DNA from: Alistipes sp.
GTDB taxonomy: Bacteria; Bacteroidota; Bacteroidia; Bacteroidales; Rikenellaceae
Direction of reading: 5' to 3'
DNA length: 64,000 bases
NCBI GenBank assembly: GCA_017398045.1
Contig: JAFQHI010000005.1
Location: forward strand, 38,357-102,356
This document shows, piece by piece, positions 3,216-18,188 of the stretch. Position numbers and translations under genes: made by a program. The notes beneath the pieces are model-generated. The model did not search any database and was not told the DNA's origin. It saw only the letters and a program-made list of their open reading frames with translations. Position 1 is the stretch's first letter. Each line of letters starts with the position of its first letter.

Positions 3216-3253
3216 AACCAAAACTGTTTTATTCTTCTTTTTTTCACTTGGTG

Positions 3254-3334: not shown

Positions 3335-6300
3335 TTACTGGGCCGGCGTCCACTTTACAACGAATACGTTGATGGCACTGCCCTTGCTGTACATATTGAT
3401 GACCGAACCGGCCTTGGCCGACGAGCAATCAACCTTGTAAACCTGGCGAGCCGAACTCTTGTCGGGAGCCTCCAGACCCTCGGCGGGCGTCACCTCCGTA
3501 CCATCGACGGCCACGGCCAGATAACGAGCGGCATCACCACTCGACTGGATATCGACCTCAAGCGTACCCGGGCCGGTTACATCGAGCTGAAGCGTACACT
3601 TCGTGGTGTTACCCGAACCGCCCAGCTGAATACGGTAAGCACCGCTGTTCGAGCCGAACTTGCACTTCGAGCCACCGGCAATAAACTTCAGGCCGTTGCC
3701 CAAATCTACATCAGCCTCGTAGTTGTCACCACCCAGCGAATTGTAGAACTGCTCGAAGAGCGAGCTGCTCCACTCCAGCGTCTGGGCAGGCGTCGAGGGG
3801 GTCTCCGGCTCCGAAGCAATCTTCTCTACCTTAATCTTGGCAGGCTGTGCGGGGATTACACCCTTATCGTCGGTTGCAGGGGTGAAGGTCACCTTGTAGT
3901 TGCCATCCTCGGCTACATACATATTACCCGAACCACCGTCGCAAATCAGGTCGTTATCAACACCCGTCGTCAGCGTTCCTGCAGCGGCAAGGCCCCAATT
4001 AAAGCGGTTATCCCACTCCGTGGCAACCTTACGCACCTTGAAGCCCTGCGAGGTGGTCAGTGCCACGCTCTCGATGGTATAAACACCACCCGACTGCTTC
4101 GTGAAGATGATATCTTCTGCCCAGCTGGTCATATCGCCAATCAGACCAATCGTGATATCCTCACCCTCGGGGGTCGGATAGGTCACCTGACCTACTGCCT
4201 CAATCAGCAACTCGCTCGTTGCAGCATAGAAGGTGATATTGAAGGTACCCGTGGCGGGCATTACGATATTGCCACCGCTGGTCGAAACGGCAAACTTCTG
4301 GTCCAGAGCCACCGTAGCGGCTGCACCATAGGCAACCGTCCAAGCGTAGTCCTCAACAATCTTGAACTCGTCATAGGCTGCCAAAGCAATGTTCGAGAAA
4401 GTATAGGTATCCGCAGCCGAAGCGGTCATCGTGTAGGTCGTATCGGTCTGATTCCAGCCGTTGAACGAACCTACGAGGCTGTAGGTGTGAGCGGCGGGAG
4501 CGGGCGTACCCGGAACCTCACCTGCGTTCATCACATAAGCCGTAGCCGTCGTGGGGTTGAAGTAGATATCAAACGTACCATCCGCAGGAACGGGGATATT
4601 GGCACCCGGCTGAATCAGCGCGATGGCCTCACCGATGGTTACCGTCGTAGCGGCATCCACACCCCAGCAGTCAGCATCGGCCCACGAGTGGTTCTTCTTG
4701 AACTTGAAGCCGTTGCCGGCAGCAATAGCCTGGTTCTTCAGCACGAAGAAGCCATCACCGTTATCGGTCATATCCGTCTCGCCCCAGCTGTTGAAGTCAC
4801 CGGCTACCGAGTAGGTATCGGTCGTCGGAACAACCGGCGTAGCACCCGTCGGGTCATCAGCACCGGCCGTTACAGCGATTACGAGTGCCTCCGTAGCGTT
4901 GAAATAGATATCATACGAACCCTCTGCAGGCAGACCCATGTTGCCACCATTGCCATAAACAGCGGTCGGAACGCCCAACTCGAGCGTCGTACCCGAACCC
5001 CAGTTTACATCCCAGTTACCGGCCTCACGAATCTTGAAACCGTTGCTCGGCTGATCTACCTTGGTCATGGCAACGGCCTTGGCCACTACATAACCGTTAT
5101 TGGCAGCCTCCATCACTACATCCGCAGCCCAATCGTTGAAGGCACCGATCACACCATACGTTGCCGTCGGCTTCGGAAGCTCCGAACCGGCCGTCAGAGC
5201 CAGGAACTCCTTCGTCTCGGCGTTGAAGTAGAAGTCGTACGAACCGGCAGCAATCGACATATTCTTACCGTTGGCAACCAGCGTCGAAGCCTCACCTGCG
5301 GTCAGTGCATAGGGCTCCGTGTCACCTGCGCCACCATAGTTCTCATCCCAAGCGTTGGCGAAACGAACCTTGAACTGATCCTCGGCCGTTACCGTTACAT
5401 TCTTCACAACCGTATAGGCCGAACCCTCTACGGCAACAAACTCCAGGTCGGGCGTACCACCCCACGAGTTGATCGTACCAACCAGACCATAGCTCGACGA
5501 AGGCAGCTCCGAACCGGCTGCAATAGCGATGAACTCCTTGGTCTTGGGATAGAAGTAGAAGTCATACGAACCGGCAGCCATCGACATATTCTTACCACCG
5601 GCTACGAGCGTAACCTTCGTATCAACGGCCAGCGCATAAGGCTCGGTCTCACCCTCGCCACCATAGTTCTCATTCCAATCCTGATCAACGCGGATCTTAA
5701 TCTGATCCTCGGCCTTCAGCGTGACATTCTTTACAACCTTGTAATCCTTGCCCTCAACAGCCTCGAATACCAGGTCGGCCGTCTCGCCCCAGTTGTTGAT
5801 CGTACCAACCAGGCCGTAGTTCTTCGTCATCGGATCCTCGATAACCACATCACCCGTCTTGGCAAAGGTCAAGGCGTAGTTAGCGCTCGTCGAGAGATTC
5901 ATTGTAATATCGTATACACCCGGCTCCGACGGAATATCCGAGCCACCGAAGGTCATATCGTTCGGATCGCCACCCAGGTTGTAGGCATAGGGATCCTCCC
6001 ACGGGTTGCCCCAGTTGTCGTTTACGCGTACCTTGTAAGCACCCTCACCCAGCGTAATGCCCTTGAGCTCCATAGCACCGGTATCGGGGTTGTATTCAAA
6101 GTTCGTCTGGCCATCCCAGCCCTTCTCCGTAGCCGAACCGATCAGACCGATCGACGAAACGGGAGCCATCGTGAGCTGTGCGGCAGCCAAATCGAGGTAG
6201 AATACGAACGTACCCTCAACGCCACCTGCACCATCGGCAACCTGCATCATGTTACCTGCCGAAGCGCTGATCGAGAAGGTGTAAGGCTCGGCCTCCGAAG

Positions 6301-7306
6301 TAGCCGTACCACCCATCCAAACAACCGACTGGTCCTTCGGGTTGGTGTAGATCACCTTGAAGCCCCACTCCTGACCATAGATCGAAACCACACCGTGGTA
6401 AACACCCGTGTTGGCATCGCCCTTGAGGATCGGCAGTGCGCTCTCCGTGTTCCAAGCGTGGCCACCGAAGTCACCGCAAAGCTGTACGAACTCGGGATAC
6501 GACGGGGTATAGGTCGTTACCGTAACCGTCACAGCCTCCGACTCGAGCTGGGGAGCACCCTCACCCTCGAGGTACGACGTAACGATGAACTGAACATCGC
6601 TGGCAGCATCCTTCGGGCAACCCAGAGCGATGAGCGTCGAGTTCAGCGTCGAAGGAGCCATCGAGAACTTCTGGGCAGCCATACCGCTGGCCAGCTCCTG
6701 ACGAGCACCGTCGTTGTAAACGATCTCCACCTTGTAGAGCGGGTTCGTGCCATACTCGAAGCGGGCAGCCGTCCAGTTGATCAGCTCGATATCCTCGGTC
6801 AGGGCATCGGTCAGTACGACACCACCCTCGGCGCCCTCGGCTACCGATACGATGGCGGGTACATAGTCGCCATAAACGAAGACATTCATCGTAATTGCCT
6901 CCGACTTCATGACCGTCAGACCGTTGTCGGCAGCGACATACATACCAATCGAGAAGTTGTCGTTACCCGGCAGGTTGAAACCGGTCAAAAGAAGGTCGCG
7001 CAGGGCCTCTTTGCCGGCCGTAAAGAAAGTTGCATTGGTCGTGGCGAGCGTAGTCTCCTGACCATCGAGCGTAGCATAAAGCGTGTACAACACATCCTCG
7101 CCCATACCGCGGGCAGCCTTCCACGAGAAGGTCACCGTCTCGGTCGTCGAGTTCTCGGTCAACAGGATATCGGCGTGCGAATCCATCACCGGAGCCGTGG
7201 CCTCTACACCGTAGAGATCGGCGGGGTCCTTCTCACAAGCCGTGAAGGCCATCACACCCGCAACCAAGGCTACTAAATATTTGAAAACTTTCATCTTTAT
7301 GTTCAT
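3335..7306 (-). CDS. Giant SusE/SusF-like surface glycan-binding lipoprotein with tandem binding modules
   Basis: A 1323-residue lipoprotein (lipobox TAC, Cys about 24) of the SusE/SusF class. Residues about 30-265 are two Ig-like N-terminal domains of SusE type. Then comes a row of beta-sandwich modules, most opening with a (Y/I)(G/S)(L/V)(I/V)G....W motif: about 270-380, 386-485, 497-601, 606-711, 717-817, 832-932, 942-1040 and 1053-1155. Modules 3 and 4 are near duplicates (both with KNVT, NYGG, TEPYAL, AAGSYDFYF). Residues about 1175-1323 form a different C-terminal domain of unknown role. Known SusE and SusF have about 390-490 residues and two or three starch-binding modules, so this is a large expansion. 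It should bind alpha-glucan at the surface beside SusC/D. The start may also be the in-frame ATG at 7294 (MKVFKYL). Confidence 0.9.
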   Translation of the reverse strand: MNIKMKVFKYLVALVAGVMAFTACEKDPADLYGVEATAPVMDSHADILLTENSTTETVTFSWKAARGMGEDVLYTLYATLDGQETTLATTNATFFTAGKEALRDLLLTGFNLPGNDNFSIGMYVAADNGLTVMKSEAITMNVFVYGDYVPAIVSVAEGAEGGVVLTDALTEDIELINWTAARFEYGTNPLYKVEIVYNDGARQELASGMAAQKFSMAPSTLNSTLIALGCPKDAASDVQFIVTSYLEGEGAPQLESEAVTVTVTTYTPSYPEFVQLCGDFGGHAWNTESALPILKGDANTGVYHGVVSIYGQEWGFKVIYTNPKDQSVVWMGGTATSEAEPYTFSISASAGNMMQVADGAGGVEGTFVFYLDLAAAQLTMAPVSSIGLIGSATEKGWDGQTNFEYNPDTGAMELKGITLGEGAYKVRVNDNWGNPWEDPYAYNLGGDPNDMTFGGSDIPSEPGVYDITMNLSTSANYALTFAKTGDVVIEDPMTKNYGLVGTINNWGETADLVFEAVEGKDYKVVKNVTLKAEDQIKIRVDQDWNENYGGEGETEPYALAVDTKVTLVAGGKNMSMAAGSYDFYFYPKTKEFIAIAAGSELPSSSYGLVGTINSWGGTPDLEFVAVEGSAYTVVKNVTVTAEDQFKVRFANAWDENYGGAGDTEPYALTAGEASTLVANGKNMSIAAGSYDFYFNAETKEFLALTAGSELPKPTATYGVIGAFNDWAADVVMEAANNGYVVAKAVAMTKVDQPSNGFKIREAGNWDVNWGSGTTLELGVPTAVYGNGGNMGLPAEGSYDIYFNATEALVIAVTAGADDPTGATPVVPTTDTYSVAGDFNSWGETDMTDNGDGFFVLKNQAIAAGNGFKFKKNHSWADADCWGVDAATTVTIGEAIALIQPGANIPVPADGTFDIYFNPTTATAYVMNAGEVPGTPAPAAHTYSLVGSFNGWNQTDTTYTMTASAADTYTFSNIALAAYDEFKIVEDYAWTVAYGAAATVALDQKFAVSTSGGNIVMPATGTFNITFYAATSELLIEAVGQVTYPTPEGEDITIGLIGDMTSWAEDIIFTKQSGGVYTIESVALTTSQGFKVRKVATEWDNRFNWGLAAAGTLTTGVDNDLICDGGSGNMYVAEDGNYKVTFTPATDDKGVIPAQPAKIKVEKIASEPETPSTPAQTLEWSSSLFEQFYNSLGGDNYEADVDLGNGLKFIAGGSKCKFGSNSGAYRIQLGGSGNTTKCTLQLDVTGPGTLEVDIQSSGDAARYLAVAVDGTEVTPAEGLEAPDKSSARQVYKVDCSSAKAGSVINMYSKGSAINVFVVKWTPAQ
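5174..5818 (-). repeat. Near-duplicate pair of binding modules inside the SusF-like gene
   Basis: The DNA for residues about 497-711 encodes two consecutive modules of about 105-108 residues. Both contain YGLVGTIN.W, VVKNVT, AEDQ, DENYGG or NENYGG, EPYAL, GKNMS and AAGSYDFYF, then an ETKEF/KTKEF end. They are the most similar pair in the array, which suggests a recent intragenic duplication. The other modules have diverged much further. Confidence 0.8.
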
Positions 7307-7378: not shown

Positions 7379-8449
7379 TTACTCGGCCTCATAGGTTACA
7401 ACCCACGGCGTGCAGTTGGCGTGCAGGCAAACAACACCCTTCATCGGCGTGAGGATGTTACCGGCACCCTGTACCAACTCGAAGCCATCGGGATACAGCT
7501 CCGAAGCGTCCGTACCACCACCGTAGTTGATGTCCCAGCTGTTGTTCAGACGGAACTTGAACTCCGTACCGGCATCGAGAGCCGACGGACTCTTCCATAC
7601 GTTCGCAGCGGCATCGTACTCCAGTACCATCGGGTTGGCCCAACCATCGAAGCCACCCATGATATCCACCTGCGAGTACTGCTTGGCGTCGATAGCCATG
7701 TTGTTCAGGTCGATGGTGATGTGCCAGATACCGGCGGGCAGCAGCAGGTTACCGTCGCTCGACGACTCGAACTTCGCACCCGTCTGCGAGAAGTTGCTGA
7801 AGCCCATCTCACCACCGTCCCACTGCTGGTTCGGCAGCACCTTGAAGCCCGACATACCCGGCGTGTTGGCAGCGTCCTCGGGAAGCTCAACCAGGGCCTC
7901 GTAGATGTTCGAGCCACCCTTGTTCTCCCAAATCTCGACAGCAGCACCGGCGTTCCAGCCGTTGAACACACCGCAGAGGTGATACTTACGCATGGCAGCC
8001 TTGAAGGTCTGAATCGTGAAGGTAATGATATTCGACTTCTGGGTCGAAAACTCCGACTCACCTGCAAAAGCGATGATGTAGGCGTTAATCGAAGCCGTCG
8101 TATTGGCCTCAACACCCAAATTATTGACCACTTTACCATTCAGGTCCGATTTCTCGACCGTGATGGCGGGATAGTTCGACTCGGCGATGAAAGCCTCCGT
8201 GCCGTCCTTCTCGAAATAGAGTTTGTAGCTCACGGCTACCGGCTGGCCGAAATCGACTGCCGAGCAGGTGAAGGTTACAGCCTCCTTATCGACATTGTCA
8301 CCATTGATGATGATGTCGCCCTGTGCATCCAGCGTAGGAGCCTCCACCTTATCGGCGGGCAACAGCTGAACGCGCTCCACATCCGTCTCACACGAAGCGA
8401 ACGTAAAGGCCGCCATGGCGAGCGTTGCAAGATATTTCATGTATTTCAT
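7379..8449 (-). CDS. SusE-like starch-binding outer-membrane lipoprotein
   Basis: A 356-aa lipoprotein: MKYMKYL start, hydrophobic stretch and lipobox ASC (Cys about 20) followed by Glu-Thr-Asp. Residues about 35-165 look like the Ig-type N-terminal part of SusE. Two beta-sandwich modules follow, one opening with YHLCGVFNGWN and one with IMGGFDGWAN; the second contains FRLNNSWDINYGGG, a motif shared with modules of the giant neighbour. The length is close to SusE (about 390 aa). It lies 41 bp after susD and 72 bp before the giant SusF-like gene, in the usual susCDEF order. It should hold glycans at the cell surface next to the SusCD importer; the exact glycan is inferred from the locus. Confidence 0.88.
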   Translation of the reverse strand: MKYMKYLATLAMAAFTFASCETDVERVQLLPADKVEAPTLDAQGDIIINGDNVDKEAVTFTCSAVDFGQPVAVSYKLYFEKDGTEAFIAESNYPAITVEKSDLNGKVVNNLGVEANTTASINAYIIAFAGESEFSTQKSNIITFTIQTFKAAMRKYHLCGVFNGWNAGAAVEIWENKGGSNIYEALVELPEDAANTPGMSGFKVLPNQQWDGGEMGFSNFSQTGAKFESSSDGNLLLPAGIWHITIDLNNMAIDAKQYSQVDIMGGFDGWANPMVLEYDAAANVWKSPSALDAGTEFKFRLNNSWDINYGGGTDASELYPDGFELVQGAGNILTPMKGVVCLHANCTPWVVTYEAE

Positions 8450-8490: not shown

Positions 8491-10173
8491 TTAGTAACCC
8501 GGATTCTGTACCAGATTCGGGTTGGCAATCAGGTCGGTGGTGATGATGGGGAACACCTTCAGGTGGTCCGACAGAGCCACCGTACCGGCCTCGATACCAC
8601 CCTTATAGGGCCAGGGATACGATGCCGAGGTGAAGTAGCCGTAGCGAATCAGGTCCACACGACGGTGACCCTCCCAATACAGCTCGCGCGTACGCTCCTT
8701 GAGGATGTACTCCAAATCAATCGTCAGCGGCATATCGGCCTCACCGTTAGCACGCTCACGCAGCTCGGCGATGCGGTTGTAACCGTTGCTCGTCGAGGTC
8801 AGCGTACCGCCATTGAGACGAGCCTCGGCCTCGGCCGAAATCAGGTACATCTCGGCCAGACGGAAAATCGGGAAGTCGGCCGACGAGAACTCGATATCAA
8901 GCTCGATAAGGTTCGGACGGTTGTCGCTCGTCAGCGGCACCCACTTGATGCAGGCCCAACCGGTCGTGATGTCCGATACCTCGTTCTCGAACTGCTGGCT
9001 GAAGCCGGCGTTGGTGAACATGGCACGCTTGTCGTTGGCCTCGCGGTCATAACCCCACGAGTCGCTCTGACCCCACTCAACACCCTGAAGAGCGAAGTTC
9101 TCCTGTACGAACTCATCCGAAACGTGGTAACCGTTCCACTGGTTCTTGTAGATGTCGCTCGAGAAACCGAACATCGACGATACGGTCGTGCGCAGGTCGC
9201 TGTTCACGGCAGCATAGAGCAGGTGCGTCGTACCACCCCAGCTCTGGGTCGTCTGGGCATCGTAAATCGAGGCTACGATGAACTCCTTCTGCGCGCCATT
9301 GGTCGAGTTGTCCTGACGGAACAGGTTTGCATACTCGGGGCAAAGCTCATAACCGCCCTCCGCAATCACCTTCTCGGCAGCATCCTTGGCATCGGCCCAG
9401 CGAGCCGTACCCGTATAGACCTCGGCGTTCAGATACAGACGAGCCAACACGGCCCAGGCAGCACCCTTCGACAGACGCGGATAGGCTACGCGCTGTGCGG
9501 GCAGATACTCATCCTTCGTAAGCTCCAACAACTCGTTCTCCACCCAGGCAAACAGACCCGCACGGCCCAGCTGCTGCGGGAAGTTGGTCGAACCGATGTT
9601 CTCGGGCAACACCAGGGGCGGGTTGCCATAGAGGTCGAGCAGAATTTCGTAGTAGATGGCACGCAGCAGACGCATCTCCGAGCGGTAAGCGCGTACATCC
9701 GAGAGCTTCGACTCGTGGCCACGGCCCGTTACGGCACCGTCACCCGAAACCGACTCGTCGAGGAACTGGTTGCAGATAGCAACACCCTTCAGACCACGCA
9801 GATAGACTGCCATTACGGCAGCATTCGTCGTCGTCCACTTGTTGTATTGCAGACCATCCACATAATCATCACCCCAGATACACTTCAGACCATCGGCCGA
9901 AAGCTCGTTGAGGAACATATACTGACGGGTAAACTCGCTCTGACCGGCATCCGATACGGCGATATCCGACGAACCCGGGTCGCCCTGCGACACGAGCGAG
10001 AAGTAGCTGTACGCATAGTTCACGTACTGGTCGTAGCTCTCCGGCTTCTCGAAGGCCTTATCGGCCGTGATGGTCGTATCAGCCATCGGCTCGGCATCCA
10101 AATCACCCAGACACGAGGTAATCATCGAAGCCGAAGTCAAGAGCGCAACACTATATAATAAGAACTTTTTCAT
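8491..10173 (-). CDS. susD: SusD/RagB family glycan-binding lipoprotein
   Basis: A 560-aa SusD homologue, the lid of the SusC porin. The signal ends at ITSC (Cys about 21). The N-terminal helix bundle (ADKAFEKPESYDQYVNYAYSYF) and tetratricopeptide-like helices (GAAWAVLARLYLNAEVY) are typical, as is the C-terminal ILKERTRELYWEGHRRVDLIRY segment, a strong family signature shown here in part (ERTRELYWEGHRRVDLIR). Length is usual for the family. It starts 19 bp after the susC stop, so the pair is translated from one message. Binding of a glucan or galactan oligosaccharide is inferred from the GH13 and GH53 enzymes nearby. Confidence 0.95.
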   Translation of the reverse strand: MKKFLLYSVALLTSASMITSCLGDLDAEPMADTTITADKAFEKPESYDQYVNYAYSYFSLVSQGDPGSSDIAVSDAGQSEFTRQYMFLNELSADGLKCIWGDDYVDGLQYNKWTTTNAAVMAVYLRGLKGVAICNQFLDESVSGDGAVTGRGHESKLSDVRAYRSEMRLLRAIYYEILLDLYGNPPLVLPENIGSTNFPQQLGRAGLFAWVENELLELTKDEYLPAQRVAYPRLSKGAAWAVLARLYLNAEVYTGTARWADAKDAAEKVIAEGGYELCPEYANLFRQDNSTNGAQKEFIVASIYDAQTTQSWGGTTHLLYAAVNSDLRTTVSSMFGFSSDIYKNQWNGYHVSDEFVQENFALQGVEWGQSDSWGYDREANDKRAMFTNAGFSQQFENEVSDITTGWACIKWVPLTSDNRPNLIELDIEFSSADFPIFRLAEMYLISAEAEARLNGGTLTSTSNGYNRIAELRERANGEADMPLTIDLEYILKERTRELYWEGHRRVDLIRYGYFTSASYPWPYKGGIEAGTVALSDHLKVFPIITTDLIANPNLVQNPGY

Positions 10174-10192: not shown

Positions 10193-13100
10193 TTAGAAGT
10201 TAATGTTCAGACGCAGCGTGTAGAGACGCGGACGCGGAATCAGCGTGCTATATACACCGTCGGCGTTGTTCACCTCGGGGTCCAGACCCGAGTAGTCGGT
10301 AATCGTAAATACGTTCTGGCACGAAGCGGCTACACGGATGTTCATCTTCGACTTGCCCACCTCGCGGAAGGTGTAACCAAGGTTGATGTCGTCCAGACGG
10401 AAGAACGAAGCATTCTCGATGAAGAGGTCCGAATAGGCCTGGTCGGTCGAGGGGTCGCCCGTGAAGCCCGTGCGGAAGTTGTACTCGTTCAGGTTCGAGA
10501 GGTAGTTGTAAGCCAACGTACCGATGTAGGCCGACGAGTTATCCACAGCCAGCTTGTTGATGGCGTAGTTGCCAATCGTACCGTGACCGTTGAAGCCGAA
10601 GTCCCAGTTCTTGTAGTTGAGCTGCATCGAGATACCGTAGTAGAAGTCGGGCGTAGCCGAGCGCCCCGTGATGTACTTGTCGTCCTCGGTAATCTGACCA
10701 TCCTCGTTGCGGTCGATGAAGGTGTTCATGATGGGCTTACCGGCAGCATCGTAGGCCTGCTGGTAGAGGTAGAAGGTGTAGGGCGAGAAACCCTTGTAGT
10801 GTACCGACGAGTTACCACCCGTACCCGAGAGCGACGAACCAACCTTCACGAAGTTGTCGTTCAGGTCGCCAATCTCGGTCTGCTGCCACGTACCGTTGAG
10901 GTTGATGGTCCAGTTCCAATCCTCGGTCTGGATGGGGATGAGGTTCAACGAAACCTCGACACCCTGGTTCACCATCTCACCGATGTTCGACATCAGGCGG
11001 TTCGTGAAGTTCGAGCCGGTCGGCACGTCAATCTCCGACAACAGGTCGGTCGTGTGACGATAGTAGTAATCCACGGCACCGTTGATGCGGCCCTGCAAGA
11101 AGCCGAAGTCGATACCGGCGTTGTAGGTCGTCGTGGTCTCCCACTTGATGCCCGAGTTGTAGGCCTGCGGAGCCAGCGTACCACCGATACCCGGCATATA
11201 CTGCGTGTTACCGTTATTTACATACTGGTAGAGCGGAATGTGGGGATAGTAGTTATCACCGATATCCTGCTGACCGGTCTGACCCCAACCCAGACGGAGT
11301 TTCAGAGCCGACAGGGTCTTCGAATCCTGCAAGAACTTCTCCTGGGCGATGTTCCAAGCGAAGGCAGCCGAGGGGAAGAAGCCCCAACGATTATCCTCCG
11401 AGAAGCGCGACGTAGCATCCTCACGCACGGTGAAGGTGAACAGATAGCGCGAGTCAATCGAGTAGTTGATACGACCGAAGAACGAAATCAGGTAGTACTC
11501 CTTCGGATAGGGCTTACGCGACTCCTCGGTCGAGCTCGACGAGTGGAACTGGTCGCGGTCGGCGTTGTAGTACTTCAGGCTCTGCGTCTTCACATAGTTG
11601 CGCTGCCATGAGTAACCACCCATCACATCCAGACGGTGGATACCGAACTCCTTGTTGTAGTTGGCATAGAACTCCAAAAGGGTGTTCGAGTTGAAGGTAC
11701 GCCAATTCGAAAAAGCATCCTCGGCACCCGACTTCAGGTTGGCATACGAACCGAGCGTGTTGTAGCCCGTACCGCGCGACTCGGCCATATCGTAACCGAG
11801 GTTCAGGTTGAGGCGCAAATCCTCCAGACCATGAATCTTATAGTCGAGCTGTACGTTACCAATCGAACGCCAGGTCGAAGAGTAGTTCACGTAGTCGTTC
11901 AGGCTCGACATGGGGTTCGTGTTGGCATTCTTCTCGGGGTTGAAGTTGCCGGCATCGTCAATGATACCCCAGTTGAAGTAACCGTTGGCAATCGAGGTAT
12001 TGATTGAGCCGTCCTCGTTGTAGAAATGAACGGGCTTCGTCGGGTCATACGTAAGGGCATCACCCACGGCGTTGTTCGTCCAATTCGACTTGTTGTAGAG
12101 GCCCTTCACGTTCAAATTCACCGTCAGGTGGTTGTCGAAGAAGGTGGGAGCGAGGTTTACGCTGGCATTCACGCGCGTATTGTCACCACCCTTCACCGTA
12201 CCTTGGTCGTAGTTGGCACCAATCGATACGCGATAGGGGAAGTTGCCCTCCTCGTTGTTACCATACACCGACAGAGCGTGGTCGGTCGAGAAGGCCGTGC
12301 GGTAAATCAAATCCTGCCAATTCGTGTCGTAAATCTTGCCGTTGTGACCCAGCAGCGACTGAATCTTCTCGGCATCGGCAGCACTACCGGCCTGATAGAC
12401 GTTGGTCAGGTAGTCGGCATACTCCTTACCCGACATCACGTCAATCTCGTCGGCGTTGTTCTTCACCGTGTAGGACGAGTTGTAGCTTACCTGCAACTTC
12501 TGACCCTTACCCTTCTTGGTGGTGATGATAATCACACCGTTCGAAGCACGCGAACCATAGATAGCCGTTGCCGAAGCATCCTTCAGCACGGTGTAGGTGT
12601 CGATGTCGTCGGGGTTTACGGTAGCGAGCGGGTTACCCATACCGGCACCGCCGTCGCCCGTTACAGGCACACCGTCAATCACGATAAGCGGGTTGTTCGA
12701 GGCGTTGAGCGAAGCGTTACCACGGATACGAATCTGTGCGCCCGTACCCGGCTCACCCGAAGCGGGCGTCACCAACAGACCCGGCACCTTACCCAGCAGC
12801 AGCTGGTCGGGCGAGGTCACGGCACCACGGTTCACATCCTCGGCCTTGATGGCCACAACCGAACCGGTCATGTCGCTCTTCTTCACGCCACCATAACCAA
12901 TCACGACTACCTCATCGAGGGTCATCAGGTCCTCCTCGAGCGTCAGATTCTTCAGCAACTCCGACGAGGCAACCAACTCAACGGTCTTGTAACCGATGAA
13001 GCTGACCGAGACCACCGAATTGGCGTCTGTTACATTCAGTACGTACTGACCGTCGATGTCGGTCGTCGTACCGTTCACGGTACCTACCTCGATGATTGTA

Positions 13101-13234
13101 GCTCCAATCACGGGGATACCGGCGGCGTCCACCACGACGCCCTTCACCTCGTACTTACCTTGGGCAAGCGCGAGATGCGGGGTTACGATGCCCAGTAGCA
13201 TCAACCCCAAGCACATTGCGAGAAATTTTCTCAT
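10193..13234 (-). CDS. susC: SusC/RagA TonB-linked outer-membrane transporter
   Basis: A 1013-aa TonB-dependent importer. A signal peptide (cleavage near ALAQ) is followed by a carboxypeptidase-regulatory-like domain (about 27-105, GVVVDAAGIPVIGATI), a TonB-box-like VVVIGYG, and a plug domain with the SusC signature (IRIRGNASLNASNNPLIVIDG and ATAIYGSRASNGVIIITTKKG, quoted in part). The beta-barrel runs to a C-terminal NINF. Length is normal for glycan SusC proteins. It lies 78 bp after the MFS transporter stop; no clear -7 element is visible in that gap, so transcription probably comes from the promoter upstream of the transporter. Together with SusD it would import oligosaccharides into the periplasm using TonB energy. 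Confidence 0.96.
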   Translation of the reverse strand: MRKFLAMCLGLMLLGIVTPHLALAQGKYEVKGVVVDAAGIPVIGATIIEVGTVNGTTTDIDGQYVLNVTDANSVVSVSFIGYKTVELVASSELLKNLTLEEDLMTLDEVVVIGYGGVKKSDMTGSVVAIKAEDVNRGAVTSPDQLLLGKVPGLLVTPASGEPGTGAQIRIRGNASLNASNNPLIVIDGVPVTGDGGAGMGNPLATVNPDDIDTYTVLKDASATAIYGSRASNGVIIITTKKGKGQKLQVSYNSSYTVKNNADEIDVMSGKEYADYLTNVYQAGSAADAEKIQSLLGHNGKIYDTNWQDLIYRTAFSTDHALSVYGNNEEGNFPYRVSIGANYDQGTVKGGDNTRVNASVNLAPTFFDNHLTVNLNVKGLYNKSNWTNNAVGDALTYDPTKPVHFYNEDGSINTSIANGYFNWGIIDDAGNFNPEKNANTNPMSSLNDYVNYSSTWRSIGNVQLDYKIHGLEDLRLNLNLGYDMAESRGTGYNTLGSYANLKSGAEDAFSNWRTFNSNTLLEFYANYNKEFGIHRLDVMGGYSWQRNYVKTQSLKYYNADRDQFHSSSSTEESRKPYPKEYYLISFFGRINYSIDSRYLFTFTVREDATSRFSEDNRWGFFPSAAFAWNIAQEKFLQDSKTLSALKLRLGWGQTGQQDIGDNYYPHIPLYQYVNNGNTQYMPGIGGTLAPQAYNSGIKWETTTTYNAGIDFGFLQGRINGAVDYYYRHTTDLLSEIDVPTGSNFTNRLMSNIGEMVNQGVEVSLNLIPIQTEDWNWTINLNGTWQQTEIGDLNDNFVKVGSSLSGTGGNSSVHYKGFSPYTFYLYQQAYDAAGKPIMNTFIDRNEDGQITEDDKYITGRSATPDFYYGISMQLNYKNWDFGFNGHGTIGNYAINKLAVDNSSAYIGTLAYNYLSNLNEYNFRTGFTGDPSTDQAYSDLFIENASFFRLDDINLGYTFREVGKSKMNIRVAASCQNVFTITDYSGLDPEVNNADGVYSTLIPRPRLYTLRLNINF

Positions 13235-13312: not shown

Positions 13313-14623
13313 TTACGCCTTCTTGGTCTGAATACCCACCACGGCTACGGCACCCAGCAGGAGCGATACACCGGCCACGACAAGCATCATGATTTGCTCG
13401 CCACCGACCAGTTTCAGCAGCATACCGCCAATCAATGCGGCAATAATCTGCGGCAGGCAAATCGTGCAGTTGAACAGGCCCAGGTAAGCACCCATCGAGC
13501 TACCCGAAAGCGAATTGGTCAACAGGGCAAACGGCATGGCCAGCATGGCAGCCCAACCGCAACCAATCAGCAGGTAGGATATAAATAATAAGTATTGGTC
13601 GTGAATCATGGCCGTCGAGATAAAGCCCAGACCGCCCAGCACGAGGCTCACGGCATAGCCCACCTTGACGTTCTTAAACAGGGGCAGCACCATGGCCCAG
13701 AGAATCGAGCCTACGGCCTGCACGGCAAACAGCACACCGACCCAGTCACCGGCCGCCTGATAGCCTGCCGACGAAACATCGGTCGTACCCCAAATCGTCT
13801 CGGCGATACCGCCGTTCGTGTAGGTCCACATATAGAGGAAGGCAACCCACGAGAAGAACTGCACCAGACCAATCTGCCAGAAGGCCTTCGGGGCGTGCAG
13901 CAACAGGGTCAACAGACCGGGCTTCTGCTCCTTGTCCGTCTCGCTCTGCTCGGACAGGCCGTGGAAAGCGGCATACTCCTTGGGGTCCATCTCCTTCACC
14001 GTGGCACCCGTGTAGAGGACGCAGAGAATCAGGATGGCGGCACCGACATAGAACGAGTAAATCACCGAGTCGGGTACCACACCGGCCGGAGCCACATTCG
14101 AAATACCAATCCAGGTAAAGATGTAGGGGAAGAGGAAGCCCACGAGCGAACCGGCGTTGCACAAGAGCGACTGAATCGAGTAGGCCTTGGCCTTCTGACG
14201 CTCATTGACCATATCGCCCACCATCATCTTGAAGGGCTGCATGGCCATGTTAATCGACGTATCGAGCAACATGAGCATCACCAGACCGAACGACATGGCC
14301 ATCTTCACGGTCAGACCGAGCGAACCGGCATTCGGGAGGAAGGCCATCACGGCCACGGCCACCAGCGCACCGAGGTAGAGGTAGGGCTTGCGACGACCCC
14401 AGCGGCACCAGGTCTTATCGCTCCAGGTACCGACCAGCGGCTGGACAATCATACCCATCAACGGGGGCAGAATCCAAAAGAAACTCAAATCGTGGGGATC
14501 GGCACCGAGGGTGGCGAAGATACGGCTGATGTTGGCACTCTGAAGTGCATAGGCAATCTGAACACCGAAGAAACCGAAGCTCAGGTTCCACATCTGCCAA
14601 AACGACAGGTCACGTTTTTGCAT
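13313..14623 (-). CDS. MFS sugar transporter (SLC45/GPH-like maltose transporter family)
   Basis: A 436-aa inner-membrane protein with about 12 hydrophobic segments. The N-terminal LSFGFFGVQIAYALQSANIS and the loop GTWSDKTWCRWGRRKPYL (charged GRRKPY after helix 2-3) are typical of the SLC45-like family of bacterial glucoside and maltose transporters. It is the first gene of the minus-strand operon and would move maltose or similar products from periplasm to cytoplasm. The ATG at 14623 is followed upstream by a predicted promoter and the LytTR operator-like repeats. Exact substrate is inferred from the linked GH13 enzyme. Confidence 0.88.
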   Translation of the reverse strand: MQKRDLSFWQMWNLSFGFFGVQIAYALQSANISRIFATLGADPHDLSFFWILPPLMGMIVQPLVGTWSDKTWCRWGRRKPYLYLGALVAVAVMAFLPNAGSLGLTVKMAMSFGLVMLMLLDTSINMAMQPFKMMVGDMVNERQKAKAYSIQSLLCNAGSLVGFLFPYIFTWIGISNVAPAGVVPDSVIYSFYVGAAILILCVLYTGATVKEMDPKEYAAFHGLSEQSETDKEQKPGLLTLLLHAPKAFWQIGLVQFFSWVAFLYMWTYTNGGIAETIWGTTDVSSAGYQAAGDWVGVLFAVQAVGSILWAMVLPLFKNVKVGYAVSLVLGGLGFISTAMIHDQYLLFISYLLIGCGWAAMLAMPFALLTNSLSGSSMGAYLGLFNCTICLPQIIAALIGGMLLKLVGGEQIMMLVVAGVSLLLGAVAVVGIQTKKA

Positions 14624-14662: not shown

Positions 14663-14693
14663 CAAATATACACGTGCGCGACGAAAAGGCCAA
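14663..14693 (-). promoter_or_regulatory. Predicted promoter of the MFS-sus operon
   Basis: On the minus strand a TTG (14693-14691) is followed after 20 bp by TATATTTG (14670-14663), matching the Bacteroidetes TTTG-N19/21-TAnnTTTG form. The -7 element is 39 bp upstream of the transporter ATG at 14623. A GACGAA half-motif (14680-14688) lies in the spacer, and the 21-bp direct repeats begin about 10 bp upstream of the -33 element. Confidence 0.7.
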
Positions 14694-14702
14694 TCCCGCT
14701 CC

Positions 14703-14753
14703 GACGAACGGACGAATCAAAGCGACGAACGGCCAAACGGGACGGACGAAAGA
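14703..14753. promoter_or_regulatory. Three 21-bp-spaced direct repeats, likely LytTR operator sites
   Basis: GACGAACGG occurs at 14703-14711 and again at 14724-14732; a degenerate third copy GACGAAAGA is at 14745-14753. All three start exactly 21 bp apart, two helical turns. On the minus strand the exact copies read CCGTTCGTC, the core of the published binding site of AlgR, a LytTR-family regulator. The adjacent divergent operon encodes a LytTR response regulator (16221). The sites lie immediately upstream of the -33 element for the transporter-sus operon, an activator-like position. Binding is inferred, not shown. Confidence 0.65.
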
Positions 14754-14794
14754 GTCTCCAAAAGGGCCGTTTTTGGCATGAACAACAAAAAAAT

Positions 14795-14825
14795 TTGCAA
14801 AAACAACAAAAAAGGCCTACCTTTA
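14795..14825 (+). promoter_or_regulatory. Predicted promoter of the LytS/LytTR operon
   Basis: TTTG (14795-14798), a 19-bp spacer and TACCTTTA (14818-14825) fit the Bacteroidetes promoter with one mismatch in the -7 element. The kinase ATG lies 25 bp downstream at 14851. Confidence 0.6.
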
Positions 14826-14850: not shown

Positions 14851-16224
14851 ATGAAACACACCACCATATCGACCCCGTGGGTCATCCACCTCTTCGCGCT
14901 GGCACACGCCCTTATCGCCATCTTAAGCCGCATGGCGAACTACGTGGATGATGTCCCCCTGACGGTCCTGACGCTGGCTTTAGTGGTGGTTATCGCCATT
15001 CGCCACGGCCTTCAGGCCGAGCTGATTGCCATCCTTGCACTGGTCGGTACGTTTGCCGGCTATCTCTTCGGTTCGTTCGGTGCCACGCTCGTGGGCAAGG
15101 TGGTTCACGATGAGGTGCTGGCTCCGGCCCTCACCACGGCCCTCTTCACCGAGTTGCTCGGCTGGGGTGTCTATGCCGTTGCCCGCCTGCGCGGAGCGAC
15201 CCTCGAACGTCGCCCGAGCTGGACCCCGCCCATTCCGCAGATTGTGCTGATTGTCCTGGCCATCCTCCTCTTCAGAATCTCTTACACGCTGATTTTCAAT
15301 TCGGACTACTTTCTGCAATCCTCCGTCAGCACGGAGCTGAACCACCTGCTGAAGAACACGGCAGCGATTCTCGTGTTGCTGTGCGGCAATATGCTCTTCG
15401 TGAGTTTCCGCCCCCACCTCGTGGGTCGGGCCGAGTGGCGCATGGCCGGTGGCGTGCTGCTGACCCTCGCCCTCTCGACCTTGGTCACCCTCTTGGTCTA
15501 TTACAACTTCCCGCACGGCACCCTGCGTATTTTTGCCTGGCTCCCCTTCCTGCGGTTGTTTGCCGTCATCCTGTTGTGCGACATTGTGGTCTATACCCTC
15601 TTCAAACTCATTGCTTACGCCCTCATCTCGAATGCCCAGCTGCACGCCGAGCGTGGCAAGAAGCATCAGGCCCAATTCCAATACAACAAGCTCAAGATGC
15701 AGATTAACCCCCATTTCTTGTTCAACTCGCTCAATATCTTGGACTTTCTGGTGCAGGAGCAGGAGACCGAACGCGCCTCGGCCTTCATCCGCAAGCTGGC
15801 CGACTGCTACCGCTATATGCTCAAAAACGAGGACGAACAGCTCGTGACGCTCCGCGACGAGCTGACCTTTGCCCACAAATACAGCGAGTTGTTGCAGGAG
15901 CGTTTCTCGAACGGTTTCCGCGTCGAGTACGCCATTCCCGAAAGCTGCATGAGCCGCCACATTGTCCCGTGCGCCCTGCAACTGCTCATCGAGAACGCCA
16001 CGAAGCACAACGCCGTGAATACCGAAAATCCGCTGCTGGTGAGCATCACCGCCACGGAGCAGACCTTGCGTGTAAGCAACCCCCTCAAACCCCGCTTGAG
16101 CAAGCAACCCTCAACGGGTAAAGGGCTGAAAAACATACGCCAACAGTACCTCGACCTGGCCAATCAGTCGATTCGGGTCGAGCAAACCGAAACCGAATTT
16201 ATCGTAGAACTTCCGCTGATATGA
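14851..16224 (+). CDS. LytS-type sensor histidine kinase (His_kinase family)
   Basis: A 457-aa membrane kinase. About six or seven hydrophobic segments fill residues 10-260, with no recognisable extracytoplasmic ligand domain. A short coiled region (NAQLHAERGKKHQAQFQYNK) leads to the kinase core: LKMQINPHFLFNSLN with phospho-acceptor His about 288, and an HATPase domain with the N-box LLIENATKHNA (about 378-388) and GKGLKNIRQQY. This is the LytS/YehU type that pairs with LytTR regulators. Its stop overlaps the regulator ATG by 4 bp (ATGA), so the two are translationally coupled. It diverges from the sus-type operon, suggesting it senses a signal linked to that locus; the ligand is unknown. 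Confidence 0.92.
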   Translation: MKHTTISTPWVIHLFALAHALIAILSRMANYVDDVPLTVLTLALVVVIAIRHGLQAELIAILALVGTFAGYLFGSFGATLVGKVVHDEVLAPALTTALFTELLGWGVYAVARLRGATLERRPSWTPPIPQIVLIVLAILLFRISYTLIFNSDYFLQSSVSTELNHLLKNTAAILVLLCGNMLFVSFRPHLVGRAEWRMAGGVLLTLALSTLVTLLVYYNFPHGTLRIFAWLPFLRLFAVILLCDIVVYTLFKLIAYALISNAQLHAERGKKHQAQFQYNKLKMQINPHFLFNSLNILDFLVQEQETERASAFIRKLADCYRYMLKNEDEQLVTLRDELTFAHKYSELLQERFSNGFRVEYAIPESCMSRHIVPCALQLLIENATKHNAVNTENPLLVSITATEQTLRVSNPLKPRLSKQPSTGKGLKNIRQQYLDLANQSIRVEQTETEFIVELPLI

Positions 16225-17021
16225 CACCACACTACAACGTCTTGATTGTCGAAGACGAGCTACCGGCACAAGCCAACCTGCGACGCGCACTCGAGCGTCG
16301 TTTCGATGACCTGCAAGTCGTCGGAATGCAAAGCTCCGTGCGCGGAACGCTCGAATGGCTGAACAATCCGGCCAATCATGCCGACATCATCTTCATGGAT
16401 GTCGAACTCTCGGACGGTATGTGTTTCGACATCTTCAACCAATACGAAGTTGAAGCCAAGGTGGTCATCACGACCGCCTATGATAACTATGCCGTGCGGG
16501 CCTTCCGCATCAACAGCATCGACTACCTCTTAAAGCCCATCGACCCCGAGGAGCTGGCCGGTGCCGTGGAGCGTTGCCGACAGGCCCTGAAGAGCAACCG
16601 CACGTCCGCCAAATCCGACTCGCAGCCGATTGATATCGAAGCCCTTAAAAGTGCGCTTACGGGGGGGGGTGAGCAAACTTACCGCAAACGATTCGTGGTT
16701 CGTTTCGGTGACCGTCTGTCGGTCATCGAGACGGCACAAGTGGCCTATTTCTATGCCGAGGACAAGAGTACGCACCTGGTAACCAGCGAGGGGCGACGCT
16801 ACATCCTCGACCAATCGTTGGACCAGCTCGCCGAGGAGATTTCGCCGGCCGACTTCTTCCGCATCTCGCGCAACTGCACGGTCTCGGTACGCGCCATCGG
16901 CGGCATCTCGAGACACCCATCGAATCGACTGAAAGTCAATCTGATACCAAAGCCCGATTTCGAAGTATTCGTATCGCGTTCGCGCACCAACGACTTCATG
17001 GTCTGGCTCGAAGGCAAATAG
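16221..17021 (+). CDS. LytTR-family response regulator
   Basis: A 266-aa regulator. The receiver domain (about 5-122) has the acidic pocket (VEDE, Asp about 12), phospho-acceptor Asp about 60 in IIFMDVEL, and the conserved Lys in YLLKPI (about 105). A linker (about 123-155) leads to a LytTR DNA-binding domain (about 157-262) with VAYFYAEDKSTHLVT and FFRISRNCTVSVRAI. LytTR proteins bind direct repeats two helical turns apart, exactly what is seen at 14703-14753 between this operon and the sus-type operon. The linker codes through a run of nine G bases (16661-16669, giving Thr-Gly-Gly-Gly), a possible slippage site that would cut the protein before its DNA-binding domain. Confidence 0.93.
   Translation: MTPHYNVLIVEDELPAQANLRRALERRFDDLQVVGMQSSVRGTLEWLNNPANHADIIFMDVELSDGMCFDIFNQYEVEAKVVITTAYDNYAVRAFRINSIDYLLKPIDPEELAGAVERCRQALKSNRTSAKSDSQPIDIEALKSALTGGGEQTYRKRFVVRFGDRLSVIETAQVAYFYAEDKSTHLVTSEGRRYILDQSLDQLAEEISPADFFRISRNCTVSVRAIGGISRHPSNRLKVNLIPKPDFEVFVSRSRTNDFMVWLEGK
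16661..16669 (+). repeat. G9 homopolymer inside the response regulator gene
   Basis: Nine consecutive G bases in the codons ACG GGG GGG GGT at the linker between receiver and LytTR domains. Gain or loss of one base would shift the frame and remove the DNA-binding domain, so it is a candidate contingency (phase-variation) tract. Only the tract itself is seen; variation is inferred. Confidence 0.75.
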
Positions 17022-17045: not shown

Positions 17046-18188
17046 ATGAAACACCTTTTTCTAACCTTGTGCGCCCTCTGCGCAACCCTTTCGCTCACGG
17101 CCCAGGAGGCCCTGTGGGAAGGGCCACTGCCCCTCTCGCCCGAACAACACGCCGACCGCTCGGTCACCTTCCGCTACACCGCCCCCGAAGCCGAAAAGGT
17201 GGAGCTTTCGGGCGACTTTGCCGCCCAGCCCCTTCCGATGACACGCAATGCGGAGGGCATCTGGGAGGTAACGACCGAACCGCTCGAATCGGAGCTTTAT
17301 ACCTACTCGTTTATGGTGGACGGGGTGCGGGTCATCGACCCCTCGAACGTACACACCGTGCGCGACATCGCCACGGTGAGCAACCTCTTCATCGTTGCCG
17401 GTGAACGCGGTGACCTCTACAGCGTCCTCCAGACCCCGCACGGCACCCTCTCGAAGGTGTGGTATCCCTCGCCCACGCTCGGCATCGAGCGACGCATGAC
17501 CATCTACACCCCGCCCGGGTACGAGGAGGGCAAGGGCCGTTATCCGGTCCTCTACCTGCTGCACGGCATGGGTGGCGACGAGGAGGCATGGCCCGCCTTG
17601 GGTCGCACGGCCCAGATTTTGGACAACCTCATCGCCCAAGGCAAGGCCGAAAAGATGATTGTCGTGATGACCAACGGCAACGCCATCCAGCAGGCCGCCC
17701 CGGGCCATAGTCCGAAGGGGCTTTACAAACCGCAATTCAAACTCCCGAAGACGATGGAGGGTTCGTTCGAGAAGTCGTTTACGGATGTGGTGGCCTACGT
17801 AGATAAACACTACCGCACCATCGCCAAGCGCGAGAAACGCGCCATTGCCGGCCTCTCGATGGGTGGGTTCCACGCCCTGCACATCTCGCGCACGATGCCC
17901 AAGACGTTCGACTACGTGGGTCTCTTCTCGGCTGCTACGATGCGTGGCGAGGGGGAGGCGTTCTACGGCGATATGGACCAAACGCTGGCCGCACAACGCG
18001 ATAACGGATTGAAAATCTACTGGATAGGTTGCGGTACGGAGGATTTTCTGTGGAAGATGAACGCCCAATTCCGCGCCAAACTCGACCAGCTGGAATTCCC
18101 CTACCACTTCCGCGAAAGCGACGGGGGTCACACCTGGCGCAACTGGCGAATCTACCTCACGGAGTTTTCGCAACTGCTCTTCAAATAG
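17046..18188 (+). CDS. Exported CE1-type esterase with N-terminal E-set/CBM48-like domain
   Basis: A 380-aa secreted protein: signal peptide ending near SLTAQ, a beta-sandwich domain (about 30-118) resembling the E-set domain of glycogen-binding and feruloyl-esterase proteins (VTFRYTAPEAEKVELSGDF), then an alpha/beta hydrolase of the esterase D/feruloyl esterase family. Seen are YLLHGMGGDE, the nucleophile elbow GLSMGG (Ser about 271), GCGTEDFL with a likely Asp, and the C-terminal His in DGGHTW. It starts 24 bp after the response regulator, so it may belong to the same operon, and it is closed by a terminator. It probably removes ester substituents from plant polysaccharide feeding the neighbouring locus; the true substrate cannot be read from sequence. 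Confidence 0.88.
   Translation: MKHLFLTLCALCATLSLTAQEALWEGPLPLSPEQHADRSVTFRYTAPEAEKVELSGDFAAQPLPMTRNAEGIWEVTTEPLESELYTYSFMVDGVRVIDPSNVHTVRDIATVSNLFIVAGERGDLYSVLQTPHGTLSKVWYPSPTLGIERRMTIYTPPGYEEGKGRYPVLYLLHGMGGDEEAWPALGRTAQILDNLIAQGKAEKMIVVMTNGNAIQQAAPGHSPKGLYKPQFKLPKTMEGSFEKSFTDVVAYVDKHYRTIAKREKRAIAGLSMGGFHALHISRTMPKTFDYVGLFSAATMRGEGEAFYGDMDQTLAAQRDNGLKIYWIGCGTEDFLWKMNAQFRAKLDQLEFPYHFRESDGGHTWRNWRIYLTEFSQLLFK

Follow-up and report, generated by a model that had tools for sequence, protein, structure and literature searches.

A conserved array of 21-bp direct repeats as a probable LytTR-family operator upstream of an MFS-sus operon in Alistipes

Which regulator, if any, recognizes the short repeats that separate a sus-type operon from a divergent LytS/LytTR gene pair in Alistipes sp., and what would it do there? 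In the window, that is, the whole 64,000-nucleotide stretch of contig JAFQHI010000005.1 that was analyzed, three 9-bp direct repeats with a step of 21 bp precede the first gene of the operon, which encodes an MFS sugar transporter. On the minus strand they read TCTTTCGTC-N12-CCGTTCGTC-N12-CCGTTCGTC, followed by 8 bp, ATTG, N20 and TATATTTG, and the MFS start codon is reached 79 bp beyond the end of site 3 (Table 1). The original prediction for this DNA had described the repeats, their 21-bp steps, a TTG-N20-TATATTTG promoter and a GACGAA at 14680 within the promoter spacer, all of which are right to the base. It had further proposed that these are LytTR-type direct repeats accompanied by a divergent LytS-type kinase and LytTR regulator, which the spacing and the domain matches support.

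Table 1 Features of the repeat array, the promoters and the surrounding genes (positions within the window).
Feature	Position	Strand	Remarks
Site 1 (distal)	14745..14753	-	TCTTTCGTC on minus strand, GACGAAAGA on plus strand; 21-bp register kept in relatives
Site 2	14724..14732	-	CCGTTCGTC on minus strand, GACGAACGG on plus strand; 21-bp register kept in relatives
Site 3 (proximal)	14703..14711	-	CCGTTCGTC on minus strand, GACGAACGG on plus strand; ends 8 bp before the -33 element
-33 element ATTG of the MFS promoter	14691..14694	-	TTG at 14693-14691; ATTG or GTTG at the same offset in L031-L034
-7 element TATATTTG of the MFS promoter	14663..14670	-	32 bp from the end of site 3
Extra TTCGTC (GACGAA at 14680) in the promoter spacer	14680..14685	-	Present in 2 of 8 close loci; not conserved
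Probable divergent kinase promoter TTTG-N20-TACCTTTA	14794..14825	+	From sequence
MFS sugar transporter, first gene of the operon	13313..14623	-	
SusC/RagA TonB-linked transporter	10193..13234	-	
SusD-type lipoprotein	8491..10173	-	NCBIfam SusD model 310.7 bits, under the cut-off of 725
SusE-domain protein	7379..8449	-	
Large SusE-domain protein	3335..7306	-	Operon membership presumed from position
SusG-type alpha-amylase with CBM58	900..3221	-	Operon membership presumed from position
LytS-type histidine kinase	14851..16224	+	His_kinase PF06580; 7 hydrophobic segments
Response regulator, receiver and LytTR domains	16221..17021	+	
CBM48-esterase adjoining the regulator genes	17046..18188	+	

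The genes on either side of the array define the two systems involved. A PF06580 kinase and a receiver-LytTR protein are encoded in adjacent genes, the composition of a LytS/LytTR two-component system. The number of hydrophobic segments in this kinase compares with 8, 8, 8 and 6 in four other kinases, and no Pfam sensor domain was matched in it. At the locus the NCBIfam BtsR and LytR models match below their cut-offs, and among the 36 chains found at E ≤ 1e-4 in a search of solved structures, only 3d6w aligned over the LytTR part. A run of nine G at 16661-16669, a slippage-prone tract, lies inside the response regulator gene between the receiver and LytTR domains. On the other strand, SusC, SusD, SusE and SusG-type proteins are encoded together, as in a starch utilization locus (sus). 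The original prediction had named a polysaccharide locus as the target. That target can be narrowed, judging by gene families, to one whose substrate is most likely starch or maltodextrin, because a SusG-type amylase, SusE and SusD-like genes are present and because the second candidate target described below is a CBM48/GH13 gene.

The frequency of the repeat pattern was assessed in the window, the genome, the genus and the order. Allowing up to two mismatches, the pair pattern matches six times in the window versus 0.75 expected, and none of 100 dinucleotide shuffles reaches six; the only two exact matches are the array at 14703-14753. The strict pair CCRTTCGTC-N12-CCRTTCGTC is found once in the 2.36-Mb genome. 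Of 101 genus genomes, 11 contain it, each a single time, and the backwards control pattern has no matches. For nine of these 11 genomes, the next ORF lies 66-81 bp on and has an MFS-like start (...LSFWQ...). At the other two loci (L061 and L065) the called ORF begins farther upstream, and identical arrays in L079 and L080 precede MFS matches. When 393 genomes across the order, few of them of this genus, were scanned with a relaxed pair pattern, 31 matches were obtained in 27 genomes versus two for the backwards control. Many of these matches lie within ORFs or in a tandem repeat and others mark other genes; except for the window's own, none is followed by an ORF with an MFS-like start. At L154 and L175, a 21-bp tandem repeat has a unit that happens to contain CCATTCATC, giving pattern matches unrelated to promoters.

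Conservation upstream of orthologous transporter-sus operons had been named as a check on the original prediction, and this check was run. A first set of 61 genomes (our own, 36 of the genus and 24 of the order) provided stretches around 26 regulator matches and one own-genome paralogue. A named-genome set comprised the 80 best-ranking loci among 570 candidates; these belong to Alistipes, other Rikenellaceae, Paludibacteraceae and unplaced Bacteroidales, and several come from the same genomes as the first set. Within these best 80 of 570, 65 loci carry an MFS match and 15 do not. In the 250 bp upstream of the 65 MFS genes there are 128 sense TTCRTC pairs no more than 70 bp apart, of which 76 are spaced at 21 bp and 37 at 42 bp, and there are no antisense pairs in the same regions. 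A 21-bp TTCRTC pair is present at 44 of the 65 loci, compared with a mononucleotide-shuffle mean of 0.015. A motif (PWM) trained on eight loci was run over each whole locus (up to 14.8 kb, both strands), and its best match was counted if it fell 40-170 bp before the MFS start and on its strand. The locus-wide best match was at the MFS promoter in 54 of the 65 loci, and in 46 of the 57 loci without a training array; the 11 missed loci are L113, L115, L120, L125, L129, L131, L138, L139, L141, L145 and L147. With a looser consensus, which was picked after the data had been seen and has mononucleotide shuffles as its only null, all 65 loci beat the shuffles at p ≤ 0.025, and 64 of them lie at the floor of 0.005. 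By the PWM and the 21-bp pair alike, the repeats are conserved upstream of orthologous operons, and the array is kept even where the transporter belongs to another MFS subfamily (39-43% identity; e.g. L073, L081 and L087).

The position of the array relative to the promoter is likewise fixed. A -7-like box (at least five of six matches, sought from +24 to +43) is found at +32 in 43 of 63 loci and at +33 in another 13, a total of 56 of 63. For LytTR systems, the usual gap between repeats is 12 bp, and the distance to the downstream -35 element is 4-11 bp, with 10 bp the commonest value (PMC6193735, available part). The array matches this description in having more than two direct repeats of about 9 bp with about 12 bp between them, in its linked or co-occurring LytTR regulator, and in the 8 bp that separate it from the -33 element in the window, within the range drawn from the accessible part of PMC6193735. 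In the direction of the kinase gene, a TTTG-N18..21-TAnnTTT string was found in 17 of 21 upstream regions scanned (a raw count), marking a candidate kinase promoter.

Rearranged loci indicate which gene the array accompanies. The array is found between regulator and MFS gene in L081, L082 and L089, where the two genes are co-oriented with the MFS gene second, and in L083 it accompanies an MFS gene located some 1.7 kb away from the kinase. Where the MFS gene stands apart, no array was found upstream of the kinase (L036h and L037h, which score 13 and 11 of 27; L036 and L037 are the same genomes as L081 and L083). Autoregulation of the kinase through the array was rejected on this basis. In two of the 15 named loci that have no MFS match, L104 (4011-7771) and L112 (4571-7768), the kinase-regulator pair stands beside yicC, and in L104 also beside the guanylate kinase gene gmk, at a distance from the MFS gene; the intergenic stretch at either pair showed no array. 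In the same genomes, the MFS gene found elsewhere carries an array (L207, L206; p = 0.002 each), and these loci, as read, contain no kinase match. That test used the looser consensus, chosen with the data in view and set against mononucleotide shuffles only, and eight of its nine MFS genes reach p = 0.002; the ninth, L208, a match without a gene start, gives 0.331. Three of the MFS genes tested (L201, L202 and L205) adjoin a kinase match of their own. In the L137 genome, a triad recognized by eye precedes a GH13 amylase-cyclomaltodextrinase operon beside the kinase, and a second one precedes a distant MFS gene; a pattern built from both matches those two places only.

Regulator and transporter also occur together. 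Among 22 genomes of the genus with a close regulator (at least 46% identity, our own included), 21 have an MFS gene on the stretch examined, with about 40% identity in four of them, and the exception is a 5.9-kb contig. Of 15 genus genomes lacking a close regulator, 12 have no MFS match, two have weak matches (25-28% identity, covering roughly one quarter of the protein), and in one there is an orthologue (70%), near which no exact 21-bp TTCRTC pair occurs in the 8 kb of contig read. The divergence of the array correlates with that of the LytTR domain after MFS distance is removed (partial r = 0.42, permutation p = 0.001), and the reverse value, for the MFS protein, is -0.11. Once the receiver domain is controlled for, the correlation between array and LytTR domain is -0.03. 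For the non-conserved spacers, the correlation with the LytTR domain reaches 0.52, above the 0.42 of the sites. Because the receiver domain does equally well and the spacers do better than the sites, this covariation is that of shared ancestry of the locus rather than of DNA contacts. The attempt to prove covariation through DNA contacts thus failed.

A triad search of our own genome with up to three mismatches returned one further place, contig C5:53076-53125 (L211), and no matches for the control. This second array is unlinked to the window and precedes a gene with CBM48 and alpha-amylase (GH13) domains, for which 12 strong orthologues, our own included, were found in the 33 chosen genomes searched. 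With the same looser consensus, picked after the data were seen and tested against mononucleotide shuffles only, an array was found before six of the 12 (L214-L219, p ≤ 0.004, L219 having only two good sites) and not before the other six (L220-L225, p 0.31-0.99). The promoter box lies 53 or 54 bp away in four cases, 41 bp away in L216 and, counted from the second site, 42 bp away in L219, unlike the 32 bp at the MFS promoter. The -7 offsets fall into three classes, 32/33, 41/42 and 53/54 bp, with roughly a helical turn from one to the next, which suggests that the promoter is phased to a face of the helix.

Several other explanations of the array have to be weighed against LytTR-mediated activation. 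That the repeats are chance copies with no function would fit the two additional GACGAA copies, since the one at 14711, like that at 14680, is not conserved in the relatives compared, as expected of random copies; with conservation and spacing statistics both contradicting it, the probability of this is negligible. The array could instead be a LytTR operator that represses the MFS operon or controls the divergent kinase gene. It does sit between two divergent promoters, and a LytTR regulator is able to repress, as AlgR does at rhlA (PMC4064291, in the part available), but against this role it has a constant offset upstream of the -33 element on the MFS side, and it is missing upstream of those kinase genes that are remote from the MFS gene (L036h and L037h). 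The sole box that overlaps the promoter, to which the original prediction had given a possible repressor role, is 23 bp rather than 21 bp from site 3, and its occurrence in relatives (Table 1) speaks against that role. We therefore regard repression or kinase control as unlikely. A somewhat less probable reading is that the operator serves another of the genome's seven LytTR proteins or is shared among them. The seven LytTR domains and a covariation that is not specific to this DNA-binding domain leave some room for it, but synteny and co-occurrence are with the linked LytS/LytTR pair, and no exact 21-bp TTCRTC pair was found in the 5.8-15 kb around the LytTR genes on C1, C4, C29, C31 and C55 (exact sites only).

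Regulators of other families were also considered. Control by SusR was rejected on spacing, which is 21 and 42 bp here versus the 67 or 77 bp predicted for its sites (PMC3878776, accessible part). Binding by a hybrid two-component (HTCS, AraC-type) regulator is harder to set aside on spacing, as predicted HTCS tandem sites are direct repeats that average 21 bp apart (same source, same part), and Reg_prop-bearing ORFs are present in the genome, with 14 Reg_prop matches. However, in this assembly (91.5% complete) all 14 lie on contigs other than that of the window, so that no hybrid two-component gene was detected at the locus and an HTCS becomes less likely. Where their length is stated, HTCS units are 12-16 bp and come in pairs (PMC3878776, as far as accessible), whereas here 9-bp units come in threes, and the array tracks the LytS/LytTR pair in both presence and place. 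Taken together, an HTCS is very improbable, more so than either of the alternative LytTR roles. Accordingly, the original prediction of a scheme different from SusR and hybrid systems stands for SusR; for hybrid systems it is favored by the missing Reg_prop match, although the spacing of about 21 bp would suit them.

These results make it likely that the three repeats form a LytTR-family operator through which the linked pair activates the MFS-sus operon and a starch/maltodextrin regulon. In the model we propose from sequence comparison, the membrane kinase would respond to a signal and phosphorylate the response regulator, which would bind head to tail on one face of the DNA in 21-bp steps, 8 bp upstream of the -33 element. 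The bound regulator would then recruit RNA polymerase to the MFS-susC-susD-susE operon, and the SusG amylase downstream would probably be switched on as well. A second operator of like kind would switch on the unlinked CBM48/GH13 gene, so that the pair would run a small starch/maltodextrin regulon. More broadly, we tentatively suggest, with confidence just short of an even balance, that starch and maltodextrin use in Alistipes, as well as in other Rikenellaceae and related Bacteroidales of the gut, may be under a standing master switch that takes the place of SusR. This switch would be a LytS/LytTR pair whose sensor is embedded in the membrane, and it would act through stacked head-to-tail arrays in which three (perhaps four) units of 21 bp follow one another and the promoter stays on one face of the DNA.

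The finding names a putative target DNA, a regulator and two candidate target operons. Its site rule (a 9-bp unit, a 21-bp step, 8 bp to -33 and 32 bp to -7) may be useful for predicting further LytTR targets within the order. Pairs of the 9-bp unit with a 21-bp step, outside called ORFs and with a -7-like box at +31/32, were also seen in other Bacteroidales families (L150, L157, L158, L166, L168 and L170). Those of L157 and L158 precede TonB-receptor-like genes, that of L168 precedes an outer-membrane barrel gene, and that of L150 is near a LytS-type kinase. These pairs may be operators of other LytTR regulators; within the 1.5-kb flanks read, no relative of the window's LytTR regulator was found near them. 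The Bacteroidetes-specific regulators of polysaccharide loci named in the accessible part of PMC3878776 are SusR-like, HTCS and ECF sigma/anti-sigma regulators; control of a starch locus through a conserved LytTR operator would be one more type. Among the titles and abstract openings listed for open-licence papers, none describes LytTR control of a sus operon.

Among known LytTR systems, the closest parallels are YpdA/YpdB and BtsS/BtsR of E. coli, which, as here, combine a LytS-type kinase with a LytTR regulator. The MFS gene yhjX is under the control of YpdB, whose direct repeat GGCATTTCAT has a 21-bp step in the oligonucleotide shown (PMC4847170 and PMC5552118, in part); the CATTTCATA variant at site 2 in L113 and its relatives resembles this repeat, a resemblance only. 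BtsS is described in a paper title as a 7-TM kinase, to be set beside the 7 hydrophobic segments counted in the window kinase and the 6 to 8 in four others. Both E. coli systems respond to pyruvate and use two sites, whereas here there are three sites, a sus operon and Bacteroidetes-type promoter elements. The third repeat, reflected in the TTCRTC pairs at 42 bp, goes beyond the LytTR pairs described in the accessible portions of the published work. The array had been called AlgR-like. This is correct for site sequence, as AlgR of Pseudomonas aeruginosa has the same 9-bp core CCGTTCGTC, but the spacing matches other LytTR regulators; AlgR sites need not occur as direct repeats with 12-bp gaps, and the targets shown for AlgR are algD, algC, fimU and rhlA (PMC4064291, in the part available).

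As here, the direct repeats of the HdrRM and BrsRM LytTR regulatory systems mostly leave 12 bp between them and precede -35 by 4-11 bp (8 bp for HdrRM); in Bacteroides, LRS-like operons carry repeats of 11 bp, separated by 11 bp, upstream of a TATCTTTG box. LytTR regulatory systems pair a regulator with a membrane protein and are autoregulated (all from the accessible part of PMC6193735), whereas here a kinase-regulator pair would target a polysaccharide operon. The locus resembles those under HTCS of Bacteroides in its two-component logic and in having direct repeats with a spacing of about 21 bp upstream of sus genes; an HTCS differs in being a single hybrid protein with an AraC-type DNA-binding domain and longer site units. 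SusR of Bacteroides thetaiotaomicron is a single membrane regulator with widely spaced predicted tandem sites, and it activates the starch sus operon (PMC3878776, as available, for both systems), the same role that is proposed here for the LytS/LytTR pair.
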